From Rhytidiadelphus loreus (Eukaryota; Streptophyta; Bryopsida; Hypnales; Hylocomiaceae), in assembly GCA_947034895.1 (NCBI GenBank), contig OX344763.1, positions 64,375,093 through 64,439,092 on the forward strand: 64,000 nucleotides of DNA, in the 5' to 3' direction. The translations under genes and the position numbers were made by a program. Below, piece by piece: positions 37,605 to 60,422 of the stretch (its first letter is position 1; each line of letters begins with the position of its first letter). The notes beneath the pieces were generated by a model. It did no database searches, had not been told where the DNA came from, and worked only from the letters and a program-made list of their open reading frames with translations.

Positions 37605-38336
37605 GCAATTCAGGTTGCACCAACCTAAAGTGCACACCTTCCAGAACTAAATGGAGGAGCTCTTCGATCCCGTACTAGAAAAAACTTCTAACACATAGAA
37701 ACTTGATTCCCATATCCCCGCCCCGAGCAATTCAGGTCGAACCGACCTGAAACGCACACCTTCCTCAGGTTAATTGACAAGCTCCATGATCGTAAACATG
37801 ATTGCAAAGCAGTCACACATAAATTCAGATCCCTAATCCCCACCCAGAGCAATTCAGGTCGAACCGACCTGAATTGCACACCTTGCTCAGGTTACCTGAC
37901 AAGCTCCATGATTGTAAACATAATTTCTATGCAGTCACACATAAACTCAGATCCCTAATCCCCACCCAGAGCAATTCAGGTCGAACCGACCTGAATTGCA
38001 CACCTTGCTCAAGTTACCTGACAAGCTCCATGATCGTAAACATAATTCCTGTGCAGTCACACATAAACTCAGATCCCTAATCCACACCCAGAGCAATTCA
38101 GGTCGAACCGACCTGAAACGCACACATTCCGCAAGTCAATTGAGAAGCTCGTCGATCTAATACATGATTGAACTCCATTTACAAATAAAGCTAGAAACCA
38201 AATCACCGCTAAGAGCAATTCAGGTCAAACCAACCTGAAGTGCACACCAAGCAAAACCAATTAGAGATGCTACACAATCCCTTACTAGGTTACGCTTCCT
38301 TCAAAGGTCAATATAACATAGAGAACATCGAAAAAT
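37605..38336 (+). repeat. 122-bp tandem array, six units, each headed by the locus-A palindrome
   Basis: Palindromes start at 37,605, 37,727, 37,849, 37,971, 38,093 and 38,215, exactly 122 bp apart. The units at 37,849 and 37,971 carry perfect 13-bp arms, GCAATTCAGGTCG and CGACCTGAATTGC, separated by AAC. The outer units carry substitutions, mostly CG to TG/CA. Each unit also holds GCACACCTT, a short second inverted repeat TCAGGT-T-ACCTGA in the middle units, ACAAGCTCCATGAT, and CAGTCACACATAAACTCAG. The array ends about 230 bp before the ATG of locus A. An upstream operator or protein-binding array for the locus is the likely role (inference). Confidence 0.9.
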
Positions 38337-38502
38337 ACAATAGTAAGCATGTAAATCGATGAAGATTTCCACAAATAACCTATCGATGATTGTGAAATAT
38401 AGGTTGGACCACGCTGAATATCAAATAGAAGAGGTTTCAAACGAACCTTGATATCGCAAAAATAAAATAAACATTGTAGCTTCAGTCCTTGGTATATAAT
38501 GA

Positions 38503-38529
38503 CATTTCAGGTCGAATCGACCTAAAATG
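38503..38529. promoter_or_regulatory. Locus-A palindrome just upstream of the ATG
   Basis: Arms CATTTCAGGTCG and CGACCTAAAATG (11 of 12 paired) flank AAT. It lies 35 bp before the start codon, between a TATATAAT-containing stretch and the splice acceptor, so it belongs to the leader intron or promoter. Confidence 0.8.
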
Positions 38530-38564
38530 CACACTCGCCTAACTTGTCTAATATCTTGTATAGG

Positions 38565-40018
38565 ATGGACGACATTACCGAACTTCTCAATTGTTACTTC
38601 AAAAAAAGAGAAGACATTGAACCCAAGGACGCCAGCAATGACGAAATGATGATAGAAGGGGACTGGTGGGAGTTCTCAGAACCTAAGGAAGTGGAGTCAT
38701 GGACCCTGAAAATGGTGCTCTTTAAAGACAATATGCACTTCAATATGAAGTACAAGAACTCAGCCGCATACTTGCCCCTGACCTTCGACGAGAAGGTGAA
38801 GCGGATCACCCCCGACATCTTCCCAGTCATTAAAATCCACTGCGTAACAACAAACAATGATCGCACCCCCGAGCAGCAATATCACTTCACGCTTCTCCTG
38901 AACTCCGAGAAGATTATTTTCAACATATCGCCTTTCCTCCAGAGCCTCGAACCAACACCATACAGTGTCGAACTAAAGCAGTTGGAGCAAAAGGTGGATG
39001 CCGGTGAATACGAGAATCAAGATGGAACTCCATTGAATGGAAAGCGTCTGTGCACAAAGCTCACACTTCTCATGAACTCATTTCTTGTCTTCAAGGATAA
39101 GCATGATATGCAACGATCGTTCATGACTCCCCGAACCGTCTCCATAGAAAATATTAGCCAGTCAGAAGGGCAACCATCAATAGGACGTAAAACCCATGGA
39201 TCACAAAGTCGGGGAAGCAAAAATAAGAAACCACCAGTAACTCCTAGGTCTGTAACACCGAGCAGCCCATTAGCAATACCGTCGGCAAAGAAGTTGGCAG
39301 AGAAAGCATCCGAACAGTCTAGCCTTGACTCGGTGAGCTTAATGGAGGAACTCAACACGGTTCTTGAAGCGCTTAGGACAAACCAGAAGCCCAACTATAA
39401 AATTGTGAGCGAGATGTACAAGAAGTACTGGGAGACGTGCTCAAGTGCGTATATCTTTGGTGCGGAAGAAAAAAAAGAGCTTCCCATAGAAAAATTGATT
39501 GTTGCTCCGACTGAGTTCAACGTCCGCGTCAAGGAGGACACAATTGTACAAGAGCAGTTGAATTACCTTGTCAATATCCTAGACAAAAGCACGAAGCAGA
39601 CACTTTGCGTAATGCCAGTCTTGCAGGCAAGGAACAGGAGGCAACCTGAAAGCTGGGATGAAGTCAAGGATGGCATGTTCTATATCATCAATGGACAACA
39701 TAGTGTGGCTGCTAGTAAACTGCTAGTAAACTCATGATGGAGGAGGGAAGTGGTGTAAGTGATGATGTGAGGCAGTACTTCAAGACCTGGAACTGCTTCA
39801 TTGTTTGGTCTCTCAGCGCAGAGAAGCTGAGGTCCATCTCAGCCTACTACAACCGCGTCAACCATTTCCAGGTTATTCAGCCGTCGTGGGCTACTAACAT
39901 TCTTGGCGCAAGATCAGTTTGGATAGCTATGGGCAGACCGAAGCATCCAAAAGGAGATGGAAGTTCCTCATCAGGGTTGAGCCGTAGGGAGATCACTTCC
40001 TTGACGACTAAGTTCAAG
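38565..40018 (+). pseudogene. Locus A exon 1: N-terminal domain plus ParB-like (INGQHS) domain, frameshifted
   Basis: The frame opens at ATG 38,565 right after an acceptor-like TTGTATAG and runs as MDDITELL... to a GTGAGT donor at 40,019. Residues 1-190 form a domain shared with locus B. Residues 200-260 are a basic Ser/Pro/Lys-rich linker that could carry a nuclear signal. Residues 340-385 hold the ParB/sulfiredoxin-superfamily signature FYIINGQHSVAAS (Gly377-Gln378-His379), the place where ParB-like nucleases have G-x-H-R. A direct duplication of CTGCTAGTAAA at 39,709-39,730 shifts the frame and ends it at 39,735-39,737. Past the duplication the second frame continues smoothly (MMEEGSG...) and aligns with locus B, so the duplication is a lesion and not an intron. 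DNA binding or nuclease function is inferred from the family only. Alternative: an active gene with an allele-specific frameshift. Confidence 0.7.
39709..39730 (+). repeat. 11-bp frameshifting direct duplication
   Basis: CTGCTAGTAAA occurs twice head to tail in the ParB-like box region of locus A. Eleven extra bases shift the frame just after INGQHSVAASK. Removing one copy in silico restores an open frame that matches the paralogue. Confidence 0.9.
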
Positions 40019-40143
40019 GTGAGTAATTCAGGTCGGACCGACCTGAATTGCATCTCCTGAAGAAGAAATGACTTTTGTAATGATATCTTGTAGATTCTCT
40101 TTTTAAATGACCACCTCACTAATAGTTGAGGTCTGAATTGCAG
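40019..40143 (+). other. Locus A intron 1 (125 bp)
   Basis: Donor AAG|GTGAGT and acceptor GAATTGCAG|AAA, phase 0. The exon frames on either side join to a continuous protein (TTKFK then KFEKAI). The corresponding locus B intron is at 55,570-55,668. Confidence 0.85.
40025..40049. promoter_or_regulatory. Locus-A palindrome in intron 1
   Basis: Perfect 12-bp arms AATTCAGGTCGG and CCGACCTGAATT around a single A. It begins six bases into the intron, close enough to the donor to affect its accessibility in RNA or to be bound in DNA. Confidence 0.9.
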
Positions 40144-41496
40144 AAATTCGAGAAAGCCATCACTCAGCATTTTGCAATGATTGATGTCAATAAGAACCAT
40201 TTGCTTGCAAAGAAGAAAGGTGGTGACGACAAGTTAAAAATTGTAAACGAGCTAAAGCTCATTGTTGCACCCGATGATTTGTTTAAGCTGTGGAGCGACG
40301 TGATCATGAATGCTGCTCTAGGCGAGCTATACGACCCCGACATCAAGATGAAGTTCAACGAGAGGAAGAACTGGAAGCAAGAAAGCTGTACGCTAAGTCG
40401 GGACTTCTTCAAGCTGCTTGGGAATCTGACATATGACGACATGAGGAAAATGGCGAGACACATTCTCAATCGTTCTGGTCCCAACCGGACGCACCTATAT
40501 CCCAAGGTCACTATCAAGCCTATAACTTTAGTCCTAGTGAGTTGCTATAGCTCAAAGGACTGGGTGGAGAGGGTCAAGCGAAAAAGGATGGTCAAGAAAG
40601 AGATTCACCTCCTCGCCCTAGAACTAGGCCTATTCAATGCAAATGGTGAAATCCTTGTCGAGAACTGGAGATCCTTCAAGAGAAGTCGTCTTATCACAAG
40701 TGCGACAATGAACCTTCTCCTCGAGAGGCCGAGTGAATCATACTTCGCCACGGGCAAGCAAGTCAAAGCAAGAAACAAGACCGCTGTAAATATATCTCCA
40801 AAGGCAGCGGAATTCTTCAAAGTCTTTCTCCAGAAGAAAATGGAGTTCCAAGCATCGACGGGAGTCGCTCATATGCGACCTTATAGCATCGGAGAAAATA
40901 AACACTTCGATTGGCCGGCGCATATGTGGACGACAGACACAACAAGTAAAATTCTTCTAGGAGTTATTGACTTCAGGTCGATTCCAGGGGTGCTGGAGAA
41001 GGACGGTTCCACCATTGACCATCCTTTCTTCTACGAGGCGTTATCGTCGTTGTAGGAGAAGAAAGAACCTAAGTTGGAAGAAATCAAAGCGTGGCTGTTT
41101 ATTGTCGCTGATGAGACCGATCAGTCTCAAGTACTTGCATTTGTGGAGAAGAATAAAGGTCTTAGGTCCTTCAATCGATGTTTCTCCGATTATTACCTGG
41201 CAAAGACTGAACGGCTATACGATCTGCCTTCGAATTCTGCAAAAGCCCTCAAGAAAGTCCGCCTCATTTTCCTCCAGAGTAAAAACAACGCATTCCAGGC
41301 TCGAATTGATCCTGAATTTCGAGCTCCAGAAACCATCGTGTACAAGGATTCAAGAAGGTTTGATGAACTTTCGTTTCGAATGTACACAATGGAGCTTCGC
41401 ATGGAGTTTTACCTGTGGCTCATCAAGATGTTCTGTCTTCCGGGATCCAGTGTTCTCTCAGTCTTCGCGGGATCAAAGCTGACATGCGCTGCACTT
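40144..41496 (+). pseudogene. Locus A exon 2: degenerate permuted DNA-methyltransferase-like domain, in-frame TAG
   Basis: This phase-0 exon runs from KFEKAI to a GTAAGT donor at 41,497. The layout resembles the beta-type N4C/N6A DNA methyltransferase fold. A hydrophobic strand ending in VIDFR stands where DPPY (motif IV) would be expected. It is followed by AWLFIVADE, a KVRLIFLQSK strand, and a C-terminal MELRMEFYLWLIKMFCLPG then SVLSVFAGSKLTCAAL, close to the KPVEL...PGDxVLDPFxGSGTT motif I. The catalytic and S-adenosylmethionine residues are not conserved, so any role is probably structural or DNA-binding (inference). TAG at 41,053-41,055 interrupts the frame between VIDFR and AWLFIV, and the same codon position is TAG in locus B. 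ParB-plus-methyltransferase pairing is known from phage and plasmid genes. Methyltransferase assignment is moderate. Confidence 0.6.
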
Positions 41497-41511
41497 GTAA
41501 GTAGAACCTTA

Positions 41512-41538
41512 CATTTCAGGTCGGAGCGACCTAAATTG
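41512..41538. promoter_or_regulatory. Locus-A palindrome, intron 2, first
   Basis: Arms CATTTCAGGTCG and CGACCTAAATTG (10 of 12 paired) around GAG; the central TCG-NNN-CGA frame is intact. Confidence 0.8.
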
Positions 41539-41615
41539 CACCTCATTATTTGTCCTTATCATTTGTATAAGATTGCATTCTCATAACGTAATTGCGATTC
41601 GAACATCTCTTGCAT

Positions 41616-41646
41616 GGCAATTTAGGTTGGTGCAACCTGAATTGCC
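41616..41646. promoter_or_regulatory. Locus-A palindrome, intron 2, second
   Basis: Arms GGCAATTTAGGTTG and CAACCTGAATTGCC (13 of 14 paired) around GTG. Both central CG dinucleotides have become TG/CA symmetrically, as expected after deamination of methylated CpG while pairing was kept. Confidence 0.85.
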
Positions 41647-41710
41647 ATTTCAGTTGTTGATCTAGTTCGCAATATACAAACTGTTTTTAAACAAAATGGT
41701 TGCCTTGCAG

Positions 41711-42772
41711 ATGAGTTCAATCGATGTTTTTGCTGTTGTTCCGGATATTGAGTCCGAAATATGGAGTAGCATTGCCACTGTTGGTCTGACTCTAGACTCA
41801 GCAAATTTTCTGGACAGTTCCTATACAGCGAATGAAGAGGAGGCCCTGGAAATTCATGGTTCGCAGTCCATGCCTGGTTCGACAAGATGGACAACTCGAT
41901 CGTCTGGTGTTGTATCGCCGAGAACTCGGCGAGGAAAGAGGCAAGTGCTGGACGAAGACGACGATGAGGATGACGAAGATGATGACTTGGAGCAGGAGAC
42001 TCAAGATGATGCTTGTGGACTTGAAGAAATGACAACGCCGGCCGCTCCCGCTTCTCAAACTGTGCCTGGGTTGTCTAGTTCTTCGGGTTTGAATTCGTTG
42101 GGGATAATGGCTCCTACATCAAATACTCCAAACACTCCGTCGTCTAGGAATCGGCCGTCAAAGAAGAAAAAGATTGATCCTATGCAGGCCCTTGCAGATT
42201 CGTTGAAATCAGTTCTACAGGAGCAAGAACGTCTCAAGGCCGCGCAAGAAGAAGATCGTGCAGAGAACAGGAGGTTCCAAGAGGCTTCAAGCAAGGGCTT
42301 TCAAGATCTGGCCAAGGCTTTTCTTGACGAGCAGAAAGCTAACAAGGAAGAGAACAGGCAAAATCGGGAAATGTGGAACCAATATCTTCTTAAGAATCAA
42401 GCCGCACTAGTTGCCGCGATTGAACCTGCATCTCCTTCCCAACAATTGATGCTTGGAATTAATCCCTCCGGATCTAACGATAGCGCAGTTTCTGTTCCCT
42501 AGAGGAATCCGGCAGGACCTCCACCACTACCTCTTGGACATCCTGAATCTAACCCTCCTCCTCCTCCTGCCAAAGAAACTCTTGCAGGTCAGAGTACTTC
42601 TACAACTCAAGGAGGCTCTGCTTCAGAAGGTGTACATGTTGACACCAGCGCACAACCAAGTGAAGGGGAGCAGTCTGGTAGTGGGCACAACCTGCCCGTG
42701 GATCCACTGGAGGTAGTACCAGGAAGTGGCACCGATCGCAACGAAGATCCACCAGCAAGTTGTGCCCAGTAA
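41711..42772 (+). pseudogene. Locus A exon 3: acidic and coiled-coil region, in-frame TAG
   Basis: Starting at MSSIDVF after the intron-2 acceptor, the product has an acidic run (DEDDDEDDEDDDLEQE, about residues 80-95), a Ser/Thr/Pro segment with a basic PSKKKK patch, and a charged heptad-rich coiled coil (about residues 157-235: LADSLKSVLQEQERLKAAQEE onward). The frame meets TAG at 42,500-42,502, then stays open for another 89 codons rich in Pro, Ser and Gly to TAA at 42,770. Those codons keep a protein-like composition. The matching part of locus B has an acidic plus coiled-coil layout but little sequence identity. The role is probably oligomerisation or protein contacts (inference). The TAG is preceded by TTTCTGTTCCC, so use as a splice acceptor cannot be excluded. 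Confidence 0.6.
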
Positions 42773-43000
42773 TCACTCGATGTCATTTGTTTTAGCTCGA
42801 CTCGAGCTGATATGTATCCTAGAGTTGCAGTTGTAGATATAAAATGTAGATAGATCAATTTTTTGGTGAACCTGAAGTTGTAATGGACTGAACCATGGAG
42901 TTCCAAATTTTCAAAGCACTTTTGTGTATTAACACTCAATTTTGAGGCTATAATGTATTGACGTCTTACAGAACATCATGTCTCAATTCTGGTATTGCAG
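42773..43000 (+). other. Spacer between locus A exon 3 and the HAD exons
   Basis: AT-rich and stop-rich, ending in TCTGGTATTGCAG, a good acceptor. Either the phosphatase exons belong to the same transcript through an unseen donor in exon 3 (a GAG|GTAGTA near 42,713 is one candidate), or this is a 3' untranslated region and a second gene begins. I cannot decide from sequence alone. Confidence 0.5.
42792..42810. promoter_or_regulatory. Locus-A palindrome variant after exon 3
   Basis: TTAGCTCG-ACT-CGAGCTGA pairs at 7 of 8 positions and keeps the CG-NNN-CG core. It lies 20 bp past the TAA, in the 3' untranslated or intronic stretch before the phosphatase exons. Confidence 0.65.
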
Positions 43001-44107
43001 GCCCTCCCATATTGCCCACTATCCCTGCTCCCATAATGCCCACTACCCCTACTCCTACAAATCAATCATTTCCTGCATTGCATCCAGAGCATGTAGTTGT
43101 ACATGATGTTATATTGCCTGTCACATCGCCAAGGACATCAAAGAGGGTGATTGAGAGTCCGATCCGTCCCAATGAACAACTTGATGATCAAAGCTTTCCC
43201 GCTGAATCCTCTCAACATAAGGTATGGTATTGTGTTTCATTCTTTGAGTCCGGTATGTGTTGTATTCTGTTCTTCCCATGTGTCTTCGGGTTCTCACTTA
43301 ATGTCAATGCGTTCCTAGTTGTAAAAGAGGAGTGCAAGATTATAACTGTCTGCACATTCTTCCGTTTGATAGCAGGAATCCGGTCCTCCATCTGTTCGTG
43401 GAGGATCTTCGGAGGGCATTAGTTGCCCATTCAGGTCCAGGGTGGCGGACAAGTGGATCAATGTTATCCTGGACCTAAATGGCATTCTTTGTGTTTGCGA
43501 AGATTGGAAGTCCAAAGGATTGTTGCACAAAAAAGTGAGAGACTTCTCGCAGCCACACTCTGCAACAGAACTTGTTGTAGTTGGACCCACGGCAGTGTGG
43601 GTGCGGCCTAATTGCTCTAATTTCCTCTCAGAGATAGGGAAAATTGCGATCGTTTTAGTGTGGAGCTCCATGAAGAAGTCCACCACTGAAATGATTTGTC
43701 AATATCTTTTCCGAGACGTAGGGCCACCCTTCCATATACTAGGGCAAGACTCGTGCCAAACATTGAAACAACGGGAAAGATCGGGGAGGTTGGTCTCATT
43801 CAAGGAGCCTAGGACAGACAAGGACTTGTTTTTAAAGAATCTGGACATGTTGTTCAAAGGCTCCAAAGGGAGCTTCTTGGATGCGAATACCATCATTGTA
43901 GATGATAGTCCCATCAAACACATAATGAACAAGCCTGAGAATGTTATACTCCCAGATTCGTGGAGTTATAAAGGAATTGGTCCTAGGGATTTGTTCCTAC
44001 TTGATGTTTTGCTTCCTTGGTTTCAACGCCTTCACGTTGCAGGAGACGTGGGTTTGAAGGCATTCAAGGAAAACGGCTCAGGAAGAATTGGGCGGCGTAT
44101 GCTTTGA
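43001..44107 (+). CDS. Locus A FCP1/NIF-type HAD phosphatase-like protein (exons 43001-43221, 43376-44107)
   Basis: Exon 43,001-43,221 ends AAG|GTATGG and exon 43,376 follows a GATAGCAG acceptor, phase 0. The second exon holds the plant FCP1-like HAD domain. The motif I region is NVILDLNGILC (plant members of this family often read LDxNGLL), then WVRPNCSNFLSE, motif II VLVWSSMKKS, and the acidic motif NTIIVDDSPIKHIMN near 43,890-43,930, followed by a C-terminal PWFQRL helix. HAD phosphatases of this group usually remove phosphate from Ser/Thr in nuclear proteins. Catalysis here is uncertain because the second Asp of DxD is Asn. TGA at 44,105-44,107 ends the frame, yet DERNRKEYNKLMEAVHASS follows in frame before the next stop, so the TGA may be another premature stop. 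Linkage to the ParB-like exons is supported by the same order in locus B. Confidence 0.65.
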
Positions 44108-44225
44108 GACGAGAGGAATCGGAAGGAGTACAACAAGCTCATGGAAGCAGTTCATGCATCTTCTAGTTTATGTTAGGTCATTGTCTAGGGGGATTTAGGT
44201 GAGGTGAACTGTCATTTTTAGTCTT

Positions 44226-44258
44226 GTTCATTTTAGCTTGATCCGACCTGAAATGAAC
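44226..44258. promoter_or_regulatory. Locus-A palindrome, HAD-to-tail intron, first
   Basis: Arms GTTCATTTTAGCTTG and CGACCTGAAATGAAC (12 of 15 paired) around ATC. Confidence 0.75.
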
Positions 44259-44294
44259 ATGTCTATTTTATAGATCATGTTTATCGATTTCTGT

Positions 44295-44319
44295 AATTTA
44301 GCTCGGTGAGACCTAAAGT
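44295..44319. promoter_or_regulatory. Locus-A palindrome, HAD-to-tail intron, second
   Basis: Arms AATTTAGCTCG and AGACCTAAAGT around GTG, imperfect. It is part of a ~67-bp tandem unit containing TTTATCGATTT(C/A)TGTAATTTAG. Confidence 0.65.
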
Positions 44320-44361
44320 GAACATGTCTACATGTGTTATAGCCCTTGTTTATCGATTTAT

Positions 44362-44390
44362 GTAATTTAGCTCGGTCCGATCTAAACTGT
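44362..44390. promoter_or_regulatory. Locus-A palindrome, HAD-to-tail intron, third
   Basis: Arms GTAATTTAGCTCG and CGATCTAAACTGT around GTC, 9 of 13 paired with the TCG-NNN-CGA core intact. It is the second copy of the ~67-bp tandem unit. Confidence 0.65.
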
Positions 44391-44511
44391 ACATGGGTGT
44401 CTTACATACTTATATATGGAAAGTGTTTGCATCAATTGGTGCTGTCTAACGTTTTTCAGTGAATTTGTACGTTGTTATTTCAATTTGTCTAAGCTGCACT
44501 TTTTCTATCAG

Positions 44512-45222
44512 ATGATGAGCATCTCAGAGACACATGTCCCACATGATGGATTAGCTTGCGCTGCATCAGTAGACTCCATCTTGGTCTATGGTCAATTAAT
44601 CATTCTCAGCACCGAAAATTTCCTTTGTTCGGCAGCCACGGCAAATTAAACATTGGACTTCTCAACGAAGCCTATCGAGGACAACGTGGTCGACAGTCCT
44701 CCCAGTGGGAGACCACATCCGCGCGTTTCTTGCTCCCCTTCACCGTTGCGATCTTCAAGGCAACCTACTTTGCCAATTTCTTCTGAAAGAGTGGCACAAA
44801 GAAAGCTTTATGAAGAAGACAGATGTCGTGATACTCCAACAGGACTGAAGTTAGAGGTTGAAGGAGGGATGTGTCCGATTCTTGCCTCTTTGCTTCCGTG
44901 TCACCCTTCTTCGAAAGGGGTGCAAACGAAGCGATCTCGGAGTTCATGCATATATGAAGCAAGGGCTACCATGTTTGAGGGCGTATTGCCTCCTATACCC
45001 AAGTGCAGGTCAATGGGTGTTGCTAAACGCCAGTGCCAGACTCATATTGGAGAACCACGGTTTGAAGGGAGTCGCCGTTCATGGGATGCTTGGGAGCGAA
45101 AATCGTTGAAGAAACAAATGCGAGAGATCATATGTCAAAGGTCTTCAAATAATGGTGGATACAGTCGAGGGCCTGAAATATTCAAGGCATTAGAAGAATT
45201 GAAGAGTAGGTCACACTCGTAG
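44512..45222 (+). pseudogene. Locus A C-terminal tail exon, in-frame TAA
   Basis: The exon follows a TTTTTCTATCAG acceptor and reads MMSISETHVPHDG... It meets TAA at 44,647-44,649, then continues in the same frame as LDFSTKPIEDNVVDSPPSG to TAG at 45,220-45,222. DFS...(E)D.VVDSPPS and the C-terminal YSRGPEIFKALEELK match the locus B tail (IDFSKGNVEDGVVDSPPS and SRREDIFRGLAKLK), so the stop falls inside a conserved exon. The product is basic, rich in Ser/Pro/Arg, with SPSPLRSS-type sites that a phosphatase or kinase could act on (inference). No known domain recognised. Confidence 0.6.
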
Positions 45223-45656
45223 TGGATACATATAGAAAAAAAAGCCATGTCTCCTTTGTCCATTGTAGTAGGCATGTACAATACAATATCAAATACGCTC
45301 AAGTAGTTTTGAGTATTCCAAAACTTTGGATTCATTATACTTCGCTATTGTGAAGACTAGAATCCATATGTAATTTTGGGATGACAATGGATGTCCTACA
45401 ATGTACAGGTTCTGTGGGGAAAGTGCTGTAGACATCCTTACCATTACAAGTAGGATGTTGGGATGTGGAGACACTACTAATTGTATTTATGATGAATATT
45501 ATCATTACATTTCATTCTTTTCATGAAGAATTTGCAATTGTATATGTATTTTTTGTATTGATGTATTGCTTTTCACTCGCCCTAGAGCACAAGTTTTGAT
45601 ATATTTATAAAATATATTGTGTTTTGGACCTCTCATTCTCATGGAAATCTCTCATT
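45223..45656. other. AT-rich 3' flank of locus A
   Basis: No supported gene. Several AATATA/TTTATAAAATAT stretches could serve as polyadenylation signals for locus A. The boundary with the truncated retrotransposon lies near 45,657, where composition changes from AT-rich to CCGGA-rich. Confidence 0.5.
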
Positions 45657-46079
45657 TTAATGAATATAGTGTTCTTCCGGAAATCCGGCTACATACCACT
45701 TGACTTGTATACTAGGAGCTACCTCGGTGGTCAACTTCTTGATTAGGCCCTTCACCTTCTGCCCATACTTCCGTACTGACTCACTGGGACGCATGGTGAC
45801 TTTACTCAATCTACCTAGTGCCCTAGCTTCTCCTCCAACTTCCCGGAATGTACGGAGGAAGGATTCCTTGAGTCGGTCCCATTCATCCCGGGTTTCTTCC
45901 GGAACGTCTTGGTACCATCTCAGCGCCTCTCCTTTCAGTAACCCTTGAAAGATCCTCTGCCTAGATGCAGCTGTTTCCTGATTAGCTATTGAGGTGGACT
46001 CAAACTCACCTATCCAGTCATCAACATCATGGCTACCATCTCCCCGGAACCTACTGTACTTCAGGCGTGTGGTGGCCAT
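45657..46079 (-). CDS. gag: LTR-retrotransposon gag fragment (truncated)
   Basis: A 140-codon frame on minus starts MATTRLKYSRFRGDG and contains the retrotransposon gag core, with ALRWYQDVPEETRDEW, LKESFLRTFREV and VRKYGQKVKGLIKKL, ending at KWYVAGFPEEHYIH. Gag packages the element RNA in virus-like particles. The domain is cut off at about 45,657, with no nucleocapsid knuckle, protease or polymerase following, so the element is a 5' remnant. The start is the first ATG, about 370 bases after the primer-binding site, a normal leader length. Confidence 0.85.
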   Translation of the reverse strand: MATTRLKYSRFRGDGSHDVDDWIGEFESTSIANQETAASRQRIFQGLLKGEALRWYQDVPEETRDEWDRLKESFLRTFREVGGEARALGRLSKVTMRPSESVRKYGQKVKGLIKKLTTEVAPSIQVKWYVAGFPEEHYIH

Positions 46080-49427: not shown

Positions 49428-49532
49428 CCATCTCACCTCTCCTATCGCCGTAACCCTAACTCACCACACTTTCTCTCACTATCAACCAGATGCGGAGCAA
49501 CTGAAAGAGGGCGAGAAATGAGGAGGAGCTAG

Positions 49533-49855: not shown

Positions 49856-49966
49856 AATAACTATCTTCGCCTTGAAGATAACCATGTTCGCCTCAAACAT
49901 AGTTATCTTTGAGGCGAAGATAGTTATCCCCGCCTCAGGGAAAGTTATCTTCGCCTCGAAGATAAT
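49856..49966. repeat. Locus-B palindrome array, five ~22-bp units
   Basis: Five variants of TTATCTTCG-CCT-CGAAGATAA follow one another at about 22-bp spacing. The last (49,945-49,965) has perfect 9-bp arms around CCT; the first has arms TATCTTC/GAAGATA; the middle ones are diverged (ATGTTCGCCTCAAACAT; ATCTTTGAGGCGAAGAT; TATCCCCGCCTCAGGGAAA). This is about 4.2 kb before the locus B start and is the B counterpart of the 122-bp array of locus A. A frame of 77 codons on minus here is a by-product. Confidence 0.85.
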
Positions 49967-52890: not shown

Positions 52891-53818
52891 AGCTGTCACA
52901 TGGTGCAAAAAATGGAAAGCTTAAAAACAAATCACAAGTGAAGCATTTCTAGCAATAGTTCTAATGAACCTGGTTGCAACTCGTTCGCTGCGTGGAAGCC
53001 ATGTCTGTCTCCTGTTGCCGTAAAAATTCACAGAACAAGCTTTGGACACTTTCTCAAAACTTGACTCTGTAAGTGCATAAGTGTAAGCTATCACCCAGTC
53101 CTATCGAACTTAATAGTTGCTTAAAGGTAAGAGTCTGGGCTTTCTATACCTCCAATATTTCTGAGCATTTTGAACGTTCAGTTATACTGATCACCAACTT
53201 CGTTACCAGCTCGTTTCCAGCTTGATAAAGCTTTCACAGCTATCTCGTAAGTCAGGTCGTCAGGTTTTAATTAAACCCTGTGGCCGTGGTGTTTGGTACC
53301 CATAGCCGGCCTTTGTACAGAAGCCGTCATTTGGGTTTTATTTTGAACTTGTCAGCTCCAGAGGCAAGGCTCTGTTTGTTATTGTTCTTTTAATTTCCCT
53401 TCTTTTGTTTTGTGCCAGGAGATGTAGACTAATAATGGGATCATTATTGATTCCTGAAAACAAATTCTTGAGTATTCAATCTTGCTTACTTAATTAGTAA
53501 GCTTGATCTGTTCAGAGGGATCAGACTGTCATGGATTGCTTGTACTATTGTGCAATATATCCAACTAGTTGTAAATCACACTAGCTTATTTATTTGAGGG
53601 CAACAGAAATAGCAGAATGCTTTTATATATGAGAATATATAAAAATATATTCAATCATAAGAAAATTATCAATAGGATGATCATATTCTTGTCATCATAT
53701 TCTCAAGAAGTAATATGTGTTTCATCCTAAATCACTGTTTTAGTTCTTGGATAAAAAATCTGGAAAAAAATAAAAAAATAAAAAAAATAAAAAAATAAAA
53801 AACATAAAAAATAAAAGG

Positions 53819-53839
53819 TTATCCTCAAGTCGAAGATAA
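53819..53839. promoter_or_regulatory. Locus-B palindrome, upstream 1
   Basis: TTATCCTCA-AGT-CGAAGATAA, 7 of 9 paired. It lies directly after an A-rich tract, about 0.33 kb before the locus B start. Confidence 0.75.
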
Positions 53840-53924
53840 CTAAGAAGCACATAGAATTTTCTTATAGTTATCAAGATTCATACCACAACCATAAGGAAGT
53901 ACTCTGCAGGATAAAGGAAAGGGA

Positions 53925-53945
53925 ATATCTTCACCTCGAAGATAA
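53925..53945. promoter_or_regulatory. Locus-B palindrome, upstream 2
   Basis: ATATCTTCA-CCT-CGAAGATAA, 7 of 9 paired, with the same CCT spacer as the upstream array. Confidence 0.75.
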
Positions 53946-54071
53946 CTCATATAACACCAGAAGAACTAAATACGACACAAGGTCCCGGTAGACCAATGCC
54001 CATAGAGAACTCATTTGTAAATCGAATACAGGAAGGTCATGTCCTTGGAACATCGCTAACCCCGCACCTAA

Positions 54072-54092
54072 TTATCTTCGGCCCAAAGATAA
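54072..54092. promoter_or_regulatory. Locus-B palindrome, upstream 3
   Basis: TTATCTTCG-GCC-CAAAGATAA, 8 of 9 paired and extendable by one A/T pair. It lies about 50 bp before the ATG at 54,145, as the corresponding locus A site lies 35 bp before its ATG. Confidence 0.8.
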
Positions 54093-54144
54093 TTCAGTTA
54101 ACAAAAGTTCTAACCAGAGTCTTGATGATTGCAGAGATAAAATC

Positions 54145-55569
54145 ATGGTAGACGATACTACCTACGATTAACCGGCCACTGAACCGTTCCTTGAACCATT
54201 CACAAAATGGGAGGGCGAAGAACCCTTCATCAGCGACATGCCAGAACTCTACGGAGTACTCTGGCAACTCAAGCCCGTCGTCGCAGACTGGACATTTGGA
54301 GTGAACCGGTCAAAAGACTATGTATTCCTGCGATACAGGATTCTAGATTCGACGACCTTTCTAAACTGGAACATAAATGAAAAGGTGGCAAGAATCGAAA
54401 ACCACCAGGGTGACTACATAGTCGTCACCCTTGAAGCGGTCAATAACGACGGGGACGGGGTGAACCATTGCCACTCCATTGTCATCCCAAACGGTGATAG
54501 CAGAGGGCAGTTTGATTTTGAAGAACTAGTTAGCTCCCTCTACGCAGCTAACCTAGTTGAATTAGCAGAGGACTTCACTTGGTTGTTCAGCCCATGGGAA
54601 TGGAAAGCAGCAATGTTCATGACGAGGAGACTGAACAACATCCTGAAATGCCTTGACAAGCACGCTGTCTCGGCCAAGAGGGCGGACCCAAGAAGAGTGC
54701 AACAAATTCAGGAACTAGAGCACAATACTCAAGAAGCATCAAGAGGACGAGGCAAATCTGGTAGCCGGAGGTCCAGTCAGGGAAGCGGGAGAGGGCAGGC
54801 TCGAGCACAGCAACCAAAGAGAAAACCAGAAGAGACCAGCACGAGTCAACCAAACTCTAAGCGGCCAAAGTCATCCCAAGTCAGCAGGCCTGTTGTAGTA
54901 GCAGGGAGTTCGGATTCTGCCCTAACCAATGTACAAACAGGGAGACCAGATGAAAGTGATGCGATTCAACACTACGAGCTCAAGGGAGCATACCAGAAAA
55001 ATTTTCAAAAGAAAAATAAAGATTGTTTCATTTTTGACCCAGAAACATTCATGGTGAACATAAACCAGTGTTACCTAGCTAGAGCAAAGTATATCATTCG
55101 AAGGCTAGAAGAGAAAATAGTGTACGAGCAAGTGCAAGAGTTAATTGAACTGTCAGACGAAAGGCAAAGGGAGACAATCTGTTTGACTCCTGTTGACGAT
55201 AATTTCAGACTCCTCAAAGTGCGTCCAAAATCATGGGACGAAATCAAGGACGGGAAATTCTATATCATCAACGGGCAGCATAGCATTACTGCATCGAAGA
55301 GGTTGCAGAAGGGAGGGTGCGTGGAGGAACGGAAGATCGAGCTGCAGACCTGGAGAGCCACAATTGTTTACAGTCTAGACGCCGATCAGCTGACAGAAAT
55401 CTCTAGGTGGTTTAATTCTACAAACCACCTGACCCATAGTTAGCCAATTTGGGGGAATCAGATTTTGAATTGCCGATTGGTCTGGCTGGCCAATAGACGG
55501 GCGGCCGGATATAAGGGTGAAGCCGCCATAAGAAAGAATGGTGCCGTGGAGGATGATGCAGCGTATTGG
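54145..55569 (+). pseudogene. Locus B exon 1: N-terminal domain plus ParB-like (INGQHS) domain, two in-frame stops
   Basis: ATG 54,145 follows a TGATTGCAG acceptor and reads MVDDTTYD, like MDDITELL of locus A, then TAA at 54,169. The frame stays open to MPELYGVLWQL at 54,238. Counted from these ATGs the INGQHS Asn is codon 376 in both loci, which supports 54,145 as the ancestral start. A gene using 54,238 would lose 31 residues. The order is as in A: N-terminal domain, basic linker rich in Gly/Arg/Ser/Lys (residues about 185-265, with KRPKSSQ), then WDEIKDGKFYIINGQHSITAS. TAG at 55,441-55,443 interrupts NHLTHS|PIWGNQIL; locus A has a Gln codon CAG there (NHFQVIQPSWATNIL). The exon ends at TGG|GTAAGG. 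ParB-like assignment rests on the GQH box and fold-like pattern. Confidence 0.7.
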
Positions 55570-55668
55570 GTAAGGAATCCACATAATTCTGACGATTCAT
55601 TACATCTTTGAGAAACTTCATTCTATAAATTTCTGCCATATTTCTTCAATGCCTCTGGATGCATTCAG
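55570..55668 (+). other. Locus B intron 1 (99 bp, acceptor uncertain)
   Basis: Donor TGG|GTAAGG, acceptor GCATTCAG|ATG, phase 0. The site aligned with the locus A acceptor now reads CCTGCAC|AAA instead of TTGCAG|AAA, so the ancestral acceptor may have been lost, with the upstream AG adding 33 residues. Confidence 0.6.
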
Positions 55669-57105
55669 ATGCTACATTATCTTCGAGTCGAAGATAATGA
55701 AATGCTTGCGTTCATCGTTCCATTGACTTCAATGAAAGTGACTTGTCTCCTGCACTTTGGACCTGCACAAAAATTTGTTGAAGGAGTAATGTACAGGCTG
55801 CAGAACATCAATACAAAGGGAGAGGGTGCAAAGGTGAAGCTATACTCTGACATCAAAAATGAAATAAAGTTGGTGACCCTACCAGATGAAATCTACAAGC
55901 TTTGGGACGAGTTCATCCAATTGCACATGAAGGGGGGGCTGATTGATCCTATACCCCACAAGCGTTACAGTGAAGGCAAAACATTCGACTCTAAGAAATT
56001 CAGCCTTAGGAGGGAGTTCTTCAAGCATATGGGGCACCTCACAAACAAAGACTTGGAGGAGTACGTCCTCCATTTGCTTGGAAGAACTGCCGGCCGAACC
56101 AGAGACTACCCCAAAGTCTCTATCGGAAGAGCAAGGGTCTTGGTTGTGGATAACATGGCAGCAACCGACTGGGTGGAGAGAAGGAAGCGCAAAAATATCA
56201 TGCGCTAGGAGCTGCAGGCCATGGATAAGTCCTTCCACTTTGTGGACGCAAACGGCAACACAAAAGAGGAGGCATGGAGGACATTCAAACTCAATTGCCG
56301 TTTCACAGGAGCCTCTTGGAACTTCCTATTGACGGCCATCCCGAATGCATTCTTCGTGAAGCGGCTGACAAACGAGGCTAAGAAGAAGATGGCTGTTGAT
56401 TTAAAGGGAGATGATAAGTTCCCCACGGTCTTCCCCATGTTCACTCGCTTTGTGCAAACGAAGATGACTCCAAAGAACGATGGCGGAGATGTCTATATTC
56501 GGGGGTACGAGTGCTTTCCCCAAGCATTTTGTACAAGTAACCCGTGGTCATACTTTGAGAGGAATCTGCTGCTGGCCGTCATTGACTTCCGGCAACTATC
56601 GAGGCCCGCATTTGGCGATGGCGGTGCACCACCGGCAGGACCCTTGTTGACTTTTCTCTAGAACCATTTGCGGCCTTGTTTGTCAGCGCCCGACGTATGG
56701 TTGTGGATTATCGGAGATGACTATGACGCCGAGACTGTAATATGCTTCGCAAGGAAGCATATGAAGGAGTATGTACTGAAATTGTCCAAGTACATATCTG
56801 CCAAATCAGAGAGAAATGAAGAAGTCGTGAACCATGTGCGGACACCCACAACCATCAAGATGCTATTCTTATTCAAGAAAGGTCCTGATGGTGTGGGCAA
56901 GGGGGTCACCTCCATGAAAGACAAATATGTGACATCGGATACCACTTATTATAGTGAGTGGTGGAAGAACACGGAGGCAAAGTACAGGGTTCATCACTCC
57001 AAGCTCCGCATGGAGTTCTACATTGACATACTCCAAAGCTTCTGTGTCACTAGTGAAAATGTCATCGGTATATATCCGGGAGCAAAATTCATGATAGCAG
57101 CTAAG
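55669..57105 (+). pseudogene. Locus B exon 2: degenerate permuted DNA-methyltransferase-like domain, two in-frame TAGs
   Basis: The start, MLHYLRVEDNEM, is encoded by a palindrome. From QKFVEGVMY on it aligns with locus A exon 2: IKLVTLPDEIYKLWDEF, DYPKVSIGRARVLVV, TDWVERRKRK, LLLAVIDFR, VWLWIIGDD, IKMLFLFKKG, LRMEFYIDILQSFCV and NVIGIYPGAKFMIAAK. TAG at 56,206-56,208 replaces a Lys codon of A inside a conserved helix. TAG at 56,659-56,661 aligns exactly with the TAG of locus A, 12 codons before the shared W of (A/V)W(L)(F/W)I(V/I). The motif I equivalent GIYPGAK is further from FxGSGT than in A. The domain is probably not a working methyltransferase (inference). Confidence 0.6.
55675..55699. 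promoter_or_regulatory. Locus-B palindrome at the start of exon 2
   Basis: Perfect 11-bp arms CATTATCTTCG and CGAAGATAATG around AGT. Translated it gives HYLRVEDNE. It is the longest perfect copy of the B palindrome. Confidence 0.9.
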
Positions 57106-57129
57106 GTACGGGATATGGCCTTGTTGAGT

Positions 57130-57150
57130 TTATCTTCGGGTCGAAGATAA
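57130..57150. promoter_or_regulatory. Locus-B palindrome, intron 2, first
   Basis: Perfect 9-bp arms TTATCTTCG and CGAAGATAA around GGT. Confidence 0.9.
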
Positions 57151-57232
57151 TTTTTTATGTCTTGTAGCTTTGATAGCAGCTACCTTTGAATTGTTGACTT
57201 TTATAAGGTTCATTTATTTTGTCTCCTAGCCA

Positions 57233-57253
57233 TTATCTTCGCCTCGAGGATAT
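57233..57253. promoter_or_regulatory. Locus-B palindrome, intron 2, second
   Basis: TTATCTTCG-CCT-CGAGGATAT, 7 of 9 paired, with the CCT spacer of the upstream array. Confidence 0.8.
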
Positions 57254-57301
57254 CACTACATTATGCTTAGTTCTCAGAGATGATTATTGATTTTTTTGCA
57301 G

Positions 57302-58741
57302 TTGTATGAACTCTACTGCTACGCTTTATCAGAGAGACATTTGTCTCAGAAGTATCGAGAGATGGTAGCAAAGTATGGGAAAAGGTTGGACATCAACGAT
57401 TTCTATCATGACAACTTGCCATACCTCCCCAATTATATTCGACCTCGACTTCTTGGTACCCCGGAGCTTCACTCGGATACTCCCCCACCAAGAGATGAGT
57501 ATCAAGAAGAGGCCATTGGGGCGCAACAATTTGCAGGTGAGGACGATACGACAATCATCCTCAACGAATTCGGGTCGAACGAAAACCTCATGAACAAGGG
57601 AAATATCTCCATCCATGTGGAGGGCTTCCAAGGGCTTGACCAAGATCCTGTATTGCCGTTCGGTGAAGGCTCCAGCAAGCGACAGAAAGGAAAGTTGCCC
57701 ACCGAAGAGATAATTCTAGACATTGATCTCAGCAACAACGAAGACAACTATTCCGATCTGGAGAATATGAATTATGACAGGGAGTTTGAAGGCGTAGGTC
57801 CATCAGGTCTCGAGGGCAATGAAGCCCAATCTAGTAACCCGCCATCAGAACCTCTGTCATCCTCCAGTGTTCCGGTTGTTTCTAGACAAGTGCCACTCGT
57901 TCAAGTCAAGCAGGAGAATATAGATTTCTGGAGGGAAAGGGAAGAGAGGAAGGCCAGAAAGAGGGAAGAGGACAGGATTGAAAAGGAGAGGGTGAAGGCG
58001 TTAGAAGTCGAGAATGCTAGGTTGAAGGCCGTCAACGCTGAGAACTCCAGGCTGAAGAAAATTGAGGAGGAGATGAAGGCGATGAAGGCTGCTCAATCAT
58101 CTCAGTGCAATCCCGTCCTAGAAGATTTTGGAAGGCTAAAGCGTGTTGAAGCTGCGAGAGGGGCTTTGCTAGCTCCCTGTCAGCAATCAATTCCTCCTCC
58201 CCTTGTTGATTATCTTCGACCCGAAGATGATCATGACATTATCCCTAATAAAGACGATGGTGTTGTTCTCCTCCCCCAATGCAAAAGGAACAAAGATGAT
58301 ACTAGACTTGATGATGGTGGTTTGCTGGGTTCTCAAGAGAAGGTGAATCCGAATCTAGAGGAGCAGCTAGAGCCGAATCGGTTGGAGGAAATTCAGTCCG
58401 ATCATGACTTGGAGGACCTTCCTCCTCTTTCACCAAAAGAGGACAAGCCAGCTACTGCTGATTATCCTCGAGACGAGGATAAACAAGGGCAGTATATCGA
58501 ATTGGACTCTCAGGTGGAATCCATCCAAGAGACTCAAGCAGAAGAGGATAGTCTACTAGATCCCACCCCTCTGCGGAGAGTATCGCATGTGCATGAGTTG
58601 GTGGTCGAGTCGCAAAATCCTCCAGATGACTTTGACGACAATGCAGGCGAGCACAGGGTGTGCGCTGTGGAGGATTCCCAGGCCTTGGAGTTTGATGAGG
58701 TAGAGCCTCATAAATCATCAGACCCCTATGATTTCTCCTAA
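57302..58741 (+). CDS. Locus B exon 3: acidic and coiled-coil region
   Basis: A clean 479-codon phase-0 exon beginning LYELYCYALSERHLSQKYRE and ending PYDFS-TAA. It has an N-terminal helical part, an acidic stretch (ILDIDLSNNEDNYSDLEN), and a strongly charged coiled coil (about residues 205-263, from FWREREERKARKRE through ERVKALEVENARLKAV and SRLKKIEEEMKAM). A long Asp/Glu-rich tail follows with repeated short blocks, including DYLRPEDD and DYPRDEDK, which are translated palindromes. It has no internal stop, unlike the two exons before it, so it may be under constraint. It matches locus A exon 3 in position and layout rather than sequence. Likely an oligomerisation or protein-contact region (inference). 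Confidence 0.65.
   Translation: MYELYCYALSERHLSQKYREMVAKYGKRLDINDFYHDNLPYLPNYIRPRLLGTPELHSDTPPPRDEYQEEAIGAQQFAGEDDTTIILNEFGSNENLMNKGNISIHVEGFQGLDQDPVLPFGEGSSKRQKGKLPTEEIILDIDLSNNEDNYSDLENMNYDREFEGVGPSGLEGNEAQSSNPPSEPLSSSSVPVVSRQVPLVQVKQENIDFWREREERKARKREEDRIEKERVKALEVENARLKAVNAENSRLKKIEEEMKAMKAAQSSQCNPVLEDFGRLKRVEAARGALLAPCQQSIPPPLVDYLRPEDDHDIIPNKDDGVVLLPQCKRNKDDTRLDDGGLLGSQEKVNPNLEEQLEPNRLEEIQSDHDLEDLPPLSPKEDKPATADYPRDEDKQGQYIELDSQVESIQETQAEEDSLLDPTPLRRVSHVHELVVESQNPPDDFDDNAGEHRVCAVEDSQALEFDEVEPHKSSDPYDFS
58210..58230. promoter_or_regulatory. Locus-B palindrome inside exon 3, first
   Basis: TTATCTTCG-ACC-CGAAGATGA, 8 of 9 paired, lying in coding sequence where the exon encodes DYLRPEDD. Confidence 0.8.
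58462..58482. promoter_or_regulatory. Locus-B palindrome inside exon 3, second
   Basis: Perfect arms TTATCCTCG and CGAGGATAA around AGA. Both arms changed T-T to C-T in a compensated way, so pairing is kept. Encodes DYPRDEDK in the same frame as the other exonic copies. Confidence 0.85.
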
Positions 58742-59082
58742 TCAAGTCAGTCGAATGCCTTGTAATGGATGTTTGTGCTGTATTTTTGAATGCCATCGAT
58801 GTTGAGTGAGAGACTCTTATGTCGATTCATTTTGATTGACAGGAGAGAGTGGACAGTCTCTGATTGTATGGCGTTGACGAGCTTCCCCTCTTTCACTCCG
58901 GATTGTAGAATAGTGTAGATACTCGAGAAAAATGTAGTGAAAATTTGCTCAAAATCGGGTACTGATTAGGAAATCCGTTTTTGGGGATGTATTTTGAATT
59001 ATTTTGAAATAAATATACCGAAAATAGTTTTGTCAAAGGATCTCCTACCTAATGAACTGTTTTTGACCATGTCTGTGCTCAG
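58742..59082 (+). other. Spacer between locus B exon 3 and the HAD exon
   Basis: Stop-rich, AT-rich, ending in CATGTCTGTGCTCAG, a good acceptor. As in locus A, it is not clear whether this is an intron of one long gene or a 3' end followed by a separate phosphatase gene. Confidence 0.45.
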
Positions 59083-60090
59083 CGCAAAGAAATTAGAAGC
59101 GTGCTACGGCCGTTGGCACTCACACAATCTCTTAGCAAACGGGTTCTATTGTCGCTTAGTGGGGATCAGAGGCAGTTGCCGTTTTGTGAGTCAACGGATT
59201 CCGCTTTTGAACAGGTACTACATCTTTTTTGTTGTATTCTGTATGATCAGGTAGTAGCGAGGGGGCGCGCGAGTGTTCCCTGGAGTGTGTTCGATGTAGT
59301 TCCCCAACCGCGACAGAAGTGGTTAAATGTGGTCTTCAATTTGAACGGGTTGCTCTGTAAGAACGAGGGTCAAGGGCCTTACTTGAAAAAGGAGCATTAT
59401 ACAATTCACGATAATATTTTCTCCGATCGGATTCCTACCATCATTGGGATGAAGGCCGTCTTCGTTCGTCCCAACTTGAGGGAATTCTTAGATGAAGTTC
59501 ATAGGTTCTCCAACCGCGTCGTAGTGTGGAGCTCCATGGTTAAGAAGAATGTGGAGCTAATCGTTGGTTTCCTATTCCAAAACTGCAAGGCGCCATTCGA
59601 CATCCTAGGAGAGGAGATGTGTAGGAGGATAGAGATCTCCGAGGGAAAATTCATGAAGGAGGCTGGGAACCCTCGGAAGGATTTGCTTCTCAAAGTGCTT
59701 GACGAACAATTGTTTGTTGATGTCAATGATCCTACGTCCTTTAGTAAGGACAACACTATTCTCATTGACGACTCTCCGCAAAAAGGTGTCATGAATGAGA
59801 ACGGGAATATGATTTCTGTCGAGAGTTGGAGTCGTAATGTGCAGTGCGATCAATTCTTGTTGGGCAAGCTGGGCCCGTGGTTGAGGCGACTCTACGAGGA
59901 GTGTCCTCTTGGTAGCTTGCGCGAGTTTGTAGATGGAAACAACATTGGTTTGCCTCCAATGTCCCATACCAATGATAGGGTAGAATATATTTTGGATGGA
60001 ATGAGGAATTCCGCCAAGAAGTTTGGTTCTCGGTTTGTTTTGCCCGGAATGAATGTAGTGATTGAGCCGGATAAACGTAGGAAAAAATAG
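59083..60090 (+). CDS. Locus B FCP1/NIF-type HAD phosphatase-like protein, nucleophile Asp replaced
   Basis: The frame runs RKEIRSVLRPLAL onward from the acceptor at 59,082 to TAG 60,088-60,090. A GT...AG piece of 36 bases (59,215-59,250) sits where locus A has a 154-base intron, but it is open and in frame, so it may be read through. The HAD domain has NVVFNLNGLLC, VFVRPNLREFLDEV, VVVWSSMVKKNVELI, DNTILIDDSPQKGVMN (about 59,754-59,800) and LGPWLRRLYEECPLGSLREF. The order and spacing fit plant FCP1-like HAD proteins. The first Asp of motif I, the phosphate-accepting residue, is Asn here (FNLNG versus LDLNG in A), so B is probably catalytically dead or a binding protein (inference). The C-terminus EPDKRRKK is basic. 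No premature stop within the domain. Confidence 0.7.
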   Translation, partial: RKEIRSVLRPLALTQSLSKRVLLSLSGDQRQLPFCESTDSAFEQVLHLFCCILYDQVVARGRASVPWSVFDVVPQPRQKWLNVVFNLNGLLCKNEGQGPYLKKEHYTIHDNIFSDRIPTIIGMKAVFVRPNLREFLDEVHRFSNRVVVWSSMVKKNVELIVGFLFQNCKAPFDILGEEMCRRIEISEGKFMKEAGNPRKDLLLKVLDEQLFVDVNDPTSFSKDNTILIDDSPQKGVMNENGNMISVESWSRNVQCDQFLLGKLGPWLRRLYEECPLGSLREFVDGNNIGLPPMSHTNDRVEYILDGMRNSAKKFGSRFVLPGMNVVIEPDKRRKK

Positions 60091-60326
60091 ACTTATCTGT
60101 GTAGTGCTCGATCTGTACATGTTGTGAATACGGATTTTTATGTAAATTTTGTTTCTCTATTTAGTAAAATTTTAAAATTTGATTTGAACATACTTTTACT
60201 GGCAATACTGAATTTCTTTTTAGCAAATCAGTGTGGGAATGTTCTTGTATGTTTATTTTTCTTCAGATCTAAGCTAATTTCATTATGTCCTTGTCTGGTT
60301 CAATGTTGTATTTAGTTAGTAGTCAG

Positions 60327-60347
60327 GTATCTTTGGGCCCAGGATAA
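60327..60347. promoter_or_regulatory. Locus-B palindrome variant, HAD-to-tail, first
   Basis: GTATCTTTG-GGC-CCAGGATAA, diverged, 5-6 of 9 paired, recognised by position and the TATCTTTGGG...GATAA form. Confidence 0.55.
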
Positions 60348-60401
60348 TTGAAAAATTATTGTGTTTCATGTGGGTTGAGGATTTATGGTTCAAGTTTCCA
60401 G

Positions 60402-60422
60402 ATATCTTTGGGTGGATGATAA
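60402..60422. promoter_or_regulatory. Locus-B palindrome variant, HAD-to-tail, second
   Basis: ATATCTTTG-GGT-GGATGATAA, diverged, same form as the site 75 bp upstream. Confidence 0.5.

Follow-up and report, generated by a model that had tools for sequence, protein, structure and literature searches.

Two regions of a 64,000-nt stretch of Rhytidiadelphus loreus DNA (OX344763.1:64,375,093-64,439,092, hereafter the window) are threaded with palindromes, each region with a type of its own. Locus A and locus B, as these regions are called here, each look like the partly decayed right-hand portion of a giant Sola-like transposon and not like a host paralogue; the two transposon families would be related, and the palindromes are probably sites of self-recognition by the transposon's own ParB/methyltransferase (MTase)-like protein, for autoregulation or anti-silencing; we infer both the binder and the effect. 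A dimer of each family's ParB-fold/MTase-fold protein would bind the palindrome, with its core TCG-NNN-CGA and clade-specific outer arms, and by covering its own element the protein would control the genes there or shield the element from silencing by cytosine methylation.

The A-type palindrome is AATTCAGGTCG-NNN-CGACCTGAATT and the B-type is TTATCTTCG-NNN-CGAAGATAA. The dyads are 21-25 bp long; the core is common to both and the outer arms differ. Both types are real and far above chance. With up to three mismatches there are nine A-type sites (mean 0.01, maximum 1, in 100 dinucleotide shuffles) and 11 B-type sites (mean 0.02, maximum 1, in such shuffles). Perfect 9-bp arms about a 3-base spacer occur five times in A and four times in B, against a simulated mean of 0.03 each (60 simulations), and are absent from the rest of the non-satellite window. 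A count without a chance control, at up to seven mismatches, gives 15 A-type sites, two of which (38396 and 42789) are doubtful taken singly. At up to four mismatches 14 B-type sites are found within locus B; matches at five mismatches (38777 and 52619) look like chance. An earlier note on this DNA had reported at least 14 A-type and at least 15 B-type copies. The first figure is matched at seven mismatches, and many of the B-type copies are confirmed but the total falls one short at four mismatches. It had also reported a shared core with different arms, no exchange of types between the loci, and sites upstream of genes, in introns and in exons. All of this is borne out: the window scan finds no credible A site in locus B or B site in locus A, and the exonic sites are those of B exon 3. 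Besides that exon, sites occupy a 122-bp array in A, a 42-bp array in B, upstream regions, introns 1 and 2, and sequence 3′ of a phosphatase open reading frame (ORF). The two loci correspond in site position: each has a site shortly before exon 1, one in intron 1, a pair in intron 2 and a triplet 3′ of the phosphatase ORF.

That the loci are related, as the note's description of them as paralogous implied, is correct, but they belong to mobile elements. The evidence lies in the 407-Mb host genome (C1-C3 are contigs of it, and L-numbers denote fetched loci), from which two subfamilies related to A, A2 and A3, were recovered. Three A2 copies, on C1, C2 and C3, have identical start and end bases, are 96-99% identical in aligned blocks of more than 2.5 kb, and measure 18,748, 19,892 and 18,666 bp without the target duplication. 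The duplication is of 4 bp in all three copies compared (CAAT, TTAT and AGAA), and the termini are imperfectly inverted (left AACACTATATTCAATATTTTGAGAG, right reversed AACATCATATTCATTAAAATGGGAG). Sola-type DNA transposons are known by a 4-bp target duplication, terminal inverted repeats and a Sola transposase; the first two are present in A2, and the A and B elements of the window are without left ends. Near the A2 left end, on the opposite strand, is a 968-codon ORF whose first 600 residues match DUF7869 (PF25273, E 2.7e-18) and, in Pfam to E 1, no other family, so no MULE transposase. Its product is the probable transposase. Rightward the order is ParB, MTase, exon 3, phosphatase and g3, and the element proteins are the DUF7869 protein, a protein with a ParB fold and a degenerate MTase fold, an FCP1-like phosphatase and the small protein g3. 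A B copy on C1, at least 24 kb long short of its left end, has the same layout, and its transposase homologue is 48.6% identical to that of A2. In the window, element A ends at 45673 in a terminal repeat similar to that of A2, and element B at 61805 in a related one.

In A2 the sites are found by the start of the 968-codon ORF (3696-4743), upstream of ParB and in intron 2; copy 3 also has them 3′ of exon 3. On C1 the B copy has 29 in all: 14 beside the transposase gene (~323.8-324.8 kb), ten upstream of ParB, two in intron 1, two in intron 2 and one in exon 3. Sites so placed, near the beginning of the transposase gene, before and downstream of the ParB/MTase gene and past its splice donors, would let the element's own protein coat it, and sites at the transposase start, its own promoter and its own introns fit both autoregulation and VANC-like anti-silencing. 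The natural binder would be the ParB-fold protein that the element encodes. In both A2 and the B copy the clusters by the start of the transposase gene also suit another binder, the DUF7869 transposase, for which the palindromes would serve transposition or self-repression; the transposase too differs between families. This is unlikely. Transposase sites are normally at termini. At the threshold applied, the sites of the three A2 copies all keep at least 3.6 kb from both ends, save one 2.6 kb from the end of copy 3, and in the window none is within ~1.3 kb of the right ends, whereas many surround the ParB gene and occupy its introns.

By predicted fold, the first domain of the ParB/MTase-like protein is ParB/sulfiredoxin and the second a degenerate beta-class amino-MTase, in keeping with the family to which the earlier note had assigned the gene. 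By sequence, Pfam and NCBIfam return no ParB or MTase family for the sequences submitted, and PDB nothing relevant. The cytidine triphosphate (CTP)-binding motif of ParB is of the GxRR type; here NGQHS replaces it in all 12 aligned rows covering that stretch. Beta-class amino-MTases have the motifs DPPY and FxGxG. The DPPY position reads D-x-R and the FxGxG position GxK, with the D, R, G and K invariant in 18 aligned rows (positions are assigned by predicted strands, not by residue-level superposition), so that this clade seems to have lost S-adenosylmethionine binding and catalysis. With such motifs it is quite unlikely that the MTase-like domain marks the element by writing N6-methyladenine (6mA) or N4-methylcytosine at the palindrome, which the predicted fold would favour and which a passage on Sola1-1_Ec32 suggests for that element (Dinatale et al. 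2025, PMC12477816).

The copies do seem to have lived in chromatin methylated at CG and CHG, to judge from the context of their C/T differences and from their stop codons. Between locus A and copy L021 such differences affect 6.9% of CHG (48/698), 3.3% of CG (23/692) and 0.9% of CHH (25/2676) positions, and the order is the same for L031 and L012. The in-frame stops seen inside the A and B coding exons of the window are all TAG, as CHG decay of CAG predicts. The palindromes share in this: of 58 core CpG positions 37 read CG, 17 TG or CA and four otherwise, and site decay largely resembles deamination of the methylation type. A genetic code with TAG as glutamine was considered and rejected. The B phosphatase ORF and the g3 ORFs appear to end at TAG, the C/T differences concentrate at CHG, and CAG-to-TAG decay fits better; aligned relatives have glutamine at two of the stops (in B exon 1, ten relatives; in A exon 2, P0011) and not at others. 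In the satellite beside locus A, taken alone (48 monomers), CHH positions show less C>T than CG and CHG, but also less C>other, and the decay signal is not clean.

In most copies the first intronic sites are 9-26 nt past the exon. Such a position would suit an RNA hairpin, the palindrome then working in the transcript, close to the donor, as a splicing signal for autoregulation. Symmetric changes in the two arms, the compensated changes of the earlier note, would count for it too and are borne out weakly, in A and not in B: there are nine in A against 5.1 in shuffles (p 0.014, or 0.046 with array copies removed) and five in B against 3.9 (p 0.33). Mismatches across the dyad are about equally G-U (13) and A-C (14), whereas an RNA stem would favour G-U, and there are large arrays 5′ of the genes and, on the other strand, next to the transposase gene. 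The hairpin is improbable. The excess of symmetry is absent from B and modest in A, and G-U is not preferred, which tips the balance towards a DNA-binding dimer.

The earlier note took each palindrome to be a gene-specific site that had diverged with its gene. The type does differ between protein lineages, by the exon-2 tree and by the arms, but comparison of copies indicates that it belongs to a clade and not to a single gene. The A type is common to A and A2, and the B type to B copies that are 39-54% identical. The counts are of half-site cores (the four bases outside TCG) in fetched copies, at loci chosen because they hold sites. In A copies 81 of 134 are CAGG and 30 TAGG, and 14 of the rest come from one coding palindrome in all seven copies. 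A2 has CAGG in 90/102 and A3 TAGG in 24/30, and B copies have ATCC in 22 and ATCT in 21 of 46. The corresponding figures in the window are 14 CAGG and four TAGG of 22 for A, and ten ATCT and two ATCC of 12 for B. In-frame protein identity between A and A2 is 52-55% over most of exon 1, 58-64% in exon 2 and 68-75% in the phosphatase, the best conserved gene between them; between A and A3 it is 38-40% (exon 1). Window B is 49% and 54% identical to the C1 copy and 39% to L039 (exon 1), and A and B proteins are 24% and 29% identical. Within a clade the arms thus persist down to about 40-50% identity, and from one clade to the other they differ. The sole B-type site in an A-type locus (L018) adjoins remnants of a B-family gene. 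That the palindromes are functionless neutral repeats, spread inside elements by slippage and gene conversion, is very improbable: some are plainly array copies (the 122-bp and 42-bp tandems), but the intron-2 site keeps its place among A, A2 and B though A and B proteins are only 24-29% identical, with the dyad retained and the arms lineage-specific.

In the host genome the A half-site-plus-core pattern occurs 79 + 85 times and the perfect B palindrome 678 times, with none in either control. Positional data cover about the first hundred places among the matches listed. Among the B matches listed on C1 (50, up to 33.45 Mb), 47 are in 17 multi-site clusters and three are single; random placement gives 0.9 close pairs on average. 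The short intervals are mostly 1480-1560 bp (22/30), which is the spacing of the upstream, intron 1 and intron 2 sites of a B copy. Sites scattered apart from the gene family would have been unexpected under self-recognition, and isolated hits were sampled from among the matches listed: seven of about a dozen for the A pattern and the three B hits of C1. Five of the seven A hits adjoin a ParB gene of subfamily A3 (arms TTAGGTCG), one is in an A2-type site cluster by a transposase ORF, and one (L034) is not a palindrome. One isolated B hit is by a ParB gene, another is in a site cluster by a transposase ORF, and the third is L040, discussed below.

Three protein searches gave 26 homologues in other sequences, unspliced, several of them reading into introns. 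For 19 tails from 18 of these it was asked whether the tail can encode a TCG-core dyad with a 3-base spacer, the controls being 600 exonic windows of 22 residues (tail lengths vary); back-translation gives possible DNA, not actual DNA. Arms of at least 8, at the same introns, are reached by 11/19 tails (ten proteins), and by 0/600 controls. Long dyads arise by chance in back-translation when the TCG core is not imposed, so only the core-constrained test was used, for P0025 and P0026 too. By it these two tails, with those of P0004, P0011, P0022 and P0023, are without a dyad; P0011, the nearest relative of A, has A-like arms and a damaged centre. Among the few labelled rows, arm type appears to follow the exon-2 tree: the B clade has TATCT, a sister clade TATCG or TATCC, the A clade CAGG and P0021 TAGC. 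In viral_contigs the B palindrome is found in no stretch and the A palindrome as three single matches; relatives of P0003 were not confirmed in viral_contigs or genome_contigs, and a plasmid search with a piece of A exon 2 gave no match.

Several observations weigh against self-recognition by the ParB/MTase-like protein. The intron-1 dyad is found in 0/7 A2 copies at the threshold used, and the intron-1 site of window B is at +105, not near the donor. In the homologues, 8/19 tails fall short of arm 8 (two reach 7, as do 15/600 controls), P0004 has ~20 readable codons and no dyad, and 8/26 homologues end too close to the splice site to enter the test. Around a fragmentary ParB-like ORF beside element B (61400-64000) there is no TCGNNNCGA, and the 4 kb fetched around the isolated B hit L040 contain no family gene. 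The symmetric deviations in A, slightly above shuffle, are not predicted by a simple dimer site. With both the ParB CTP motif and the MTase catalytic motifs replaced, clamp loading cannot be taken for granted, nor can methylation. As said, the binder could instead be the DUF7869 protein.

The part of the A-family transposon that lies in the window (34306..45673, plus strand) is its right-hand part; the left end is outside the window. This part is 94% identical to L021 across 8.8 kb. It is preceded by a 176-bp satellite array (1..34305, minus strand; 194.9 copies by TRF). Their junction was ruled out as the left end of element A, since the same satellite is there in another copy: L021 likewise adjoins it. 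The satellite is 75.4% identical over 358 bp (E 1.5e-60, minus orientation) to a 178-bp tandem repeat present in four copies inside A2 (~7.4-8.3 kb of the element). The 34-kb satellite is possibly an expanded internal repeat of element A, a tandem repeat of the transposon having perhaps been amplified to satellite size. In A2 copy 1 (L016) kilobases of tandem repeats (periods 123, 166 and 178; ~6430-10684), without long ORFs, separate the transposase and ParB genes.

Upstream of the A ParB-like gene are six A-type palindromes, 122 bp apart (37607, 37729, 37851, 37973, 38095 and 38217; 37607..38241), and one more (38504..38528) lies just 5′ of its first exon. The genes are on the plus strand. 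Exon 1 (38565..40012) encodes the ParB-fold domain, and its frame is broken near 39.73 kb by a small tandem duplication. Exon 2 (40144..41496, one in-frame TAG) encodes a helical part and the degenerate beta-class MTase fold; the folds of both exons are predicted from the B homologue. Exon 3 (41711..42769, one in-frame TAG) encodes an acidic/coiled-coil tail. The intron-1 palindrome (40025..40049) is ~15 nt past the splice donor, and of the two in intron 2 (41513 and 41619; 41513..41643) the first is ~20 nt past the exon. In A copy L020 a 5.4-kb insertion (~2930-8350) splits the intron-1 palindrome, with ~10 bp common to both sides of the break. Just 3′ of exon 3 is a variant palindrome with AGCTCG arms (42789..42813); the same variant is in the same place in the A2 copies c3 and L029. 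The FCP1/NIF-like phosphatase ORF (43442..44107; PF03031, E 5.8e-14) is followed by three decayed palindromes (44230, 44295 and 44364; 44230..44388), by the small Ser/Pro-rich ORF g3 (44653..45222), conserved in A2 and B elements, and by the right terminal repeat (45655..45673).

Locus B begins with three B-type palindromes in a 42-bp tandem array (49859..49965), separated from the rest by ~3.8 kb of AT-rich sequence. Three more (53817, 53923 and 54070; 53817..54094) lie upstream of the ParB-like gene, also on the plus strand. Exon 1 (54172..55572, one in-frame TAG) encodes the predicted ParB-fold domain with the motif INGQHS, and exon 2 (55765..57107, limits from the acceptor side, two in-frame TAGs) the predicted MTase-fold domain. 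Between them is a perfect palindrome (55675..55699), and intron 2 has two (57128 and 57231; 57128..57255). Exon 3 (57301..58741) holds palindromes at 58208 and 58460, with arms TTATCTTCG and TTATCCTCG. An extra dyad inside exon 2 (56739-56763), ATATGCTTCG-CAA-GGAAGCATAT, is B-arm-like and may be chance or a coding relic. The B phosphatase ORF (59101..60090; FCP1/NIF-like, PF03031, E 3.1e-11) has the nucleophile motif FNLNG in place of the LDLNG of A, so its product may have no catalytic activity. Downstream of this ORF three decayed palindromes (60255..60424) are spaced as in the corresponding A group, and g3 (60461..61351, one in-frame TAG, limits approximate) and the right terminus (61787..61805), with a terminal motif similar to A's, follow. 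On the minus strand a third, divergent ParB-like ORF fragment (FIIGGQHTVEAYKRL; 61807-62646, one TGA and one TAG) stops where element B ends, as though B had landed in it. A further uncharacterised ORF is present in two copies, 49% identical, that flank locus B in opposite orientations (48450-49460, minus; 63101-64000, plus), and an in-frame TAG in one corresponds to glutamine in the other.

Proteins of this architecture have been described in giant transposons. Sola1-1_Ec32 of Ectocarpus, 21.5 kb long, encodes a ParB-like plus amino-MTase protein opposite its transposase; the passage on it proposes binding and modification of the parent transposon by such proteins, and cites earlier green and red algal counterparts (Dinatale et al. 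2025, PMC12477816). The elements described here are likewise giant DNA transposons with the ParB-MTase protein on the strand opposite the transposase. The passage on Sola1-1_Ec32 names no target site, whereas the elements here have candidate ones, clade-specific palindromes in introns and by the starts of genes; the MTase motifs here, in contrast, look dead, and an FCP1-like phosphatase and g3 are also carried (the likeness is by description, not sequence). Among open-licence PMC papers, in the matches listed, none was found that names palindromic targets of ParB-MTase transposon proteins, and the main text of a paper on 6mA in eukaryotes (PMC12695648) mentions neither ParB nor Sola. As far as open-licence papers show, it is the palindromes as candidate targets that are new, the proteins having been published already (PMC12477816).

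The closest functional parallel, by analogy, is offered by the VANDAL transposons of Arabidopsis, whose VANC proteins recognise their own family. The VANC21 and VANC6 motifs occur in the introns of VANDALs and in their upstream repeats (Hosaka et al. 2017, PMC5735166; EMBO Rep 2023, PMC10398659). There, as here, an element-specific motif is dense in noncoding DNA, is partly in tandem and differs between related families. The VANC21 motif, however, is the 9-base YAGTATTAY, not a dyad of 21-25 bp with a shared core and different arms; VANDALs have a MULE transposase, where A2 has the DUF7869 ORF, and here a few B-type sites are exonic (exon 3). No relation of VANC to the A and B proteins was found, no direct search having been made, and anti-silencing is suggested by analogy. 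Of the self-recognition (autoregulation, anti-silencing or mobility) put forward in the earlier note, the comparison with VANC is apt and the loci do belong to mobile elements; binding and function are inferred. Bacterial ParB, Noc and KorB also have palindromic sites. They differ in that INGQHS here replaces the CTP-binding motif and an MTase fold follows, and in that the setting is a eukaryotic transposon and the dyad has a 3-bp spacer. A fuller version of self-recognition, which we offer tentatively, is a eukaryotic self-marking akin to ParABS. The ParB-fold protein would load at clade-specific, parS-like palindromes at both promoters and in introns and spread along the element, with the fused dead MTase as a second DNA reader; each lineage would keep its own copies open against CG/CHG silencing, and arms and protein would co-diverge as lock and key.

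Until now the ParB-MTase proteins of giant algal transposons have been a curiosity with a guessed role, for which the palindromes are a candidate for the missing target. They predict the DNA bound by each protein and provide two natural specificities, CAGG-TCG and ATC[T/C]-TCG. Because some are at fixed places past splice donors, the sites may also serve as a cheap annotation of these elements. If self-recognition by the ParB/MTase-like protein is true, sequence-specific self-recognition by transposons would have arisen more than once, via different proteins.

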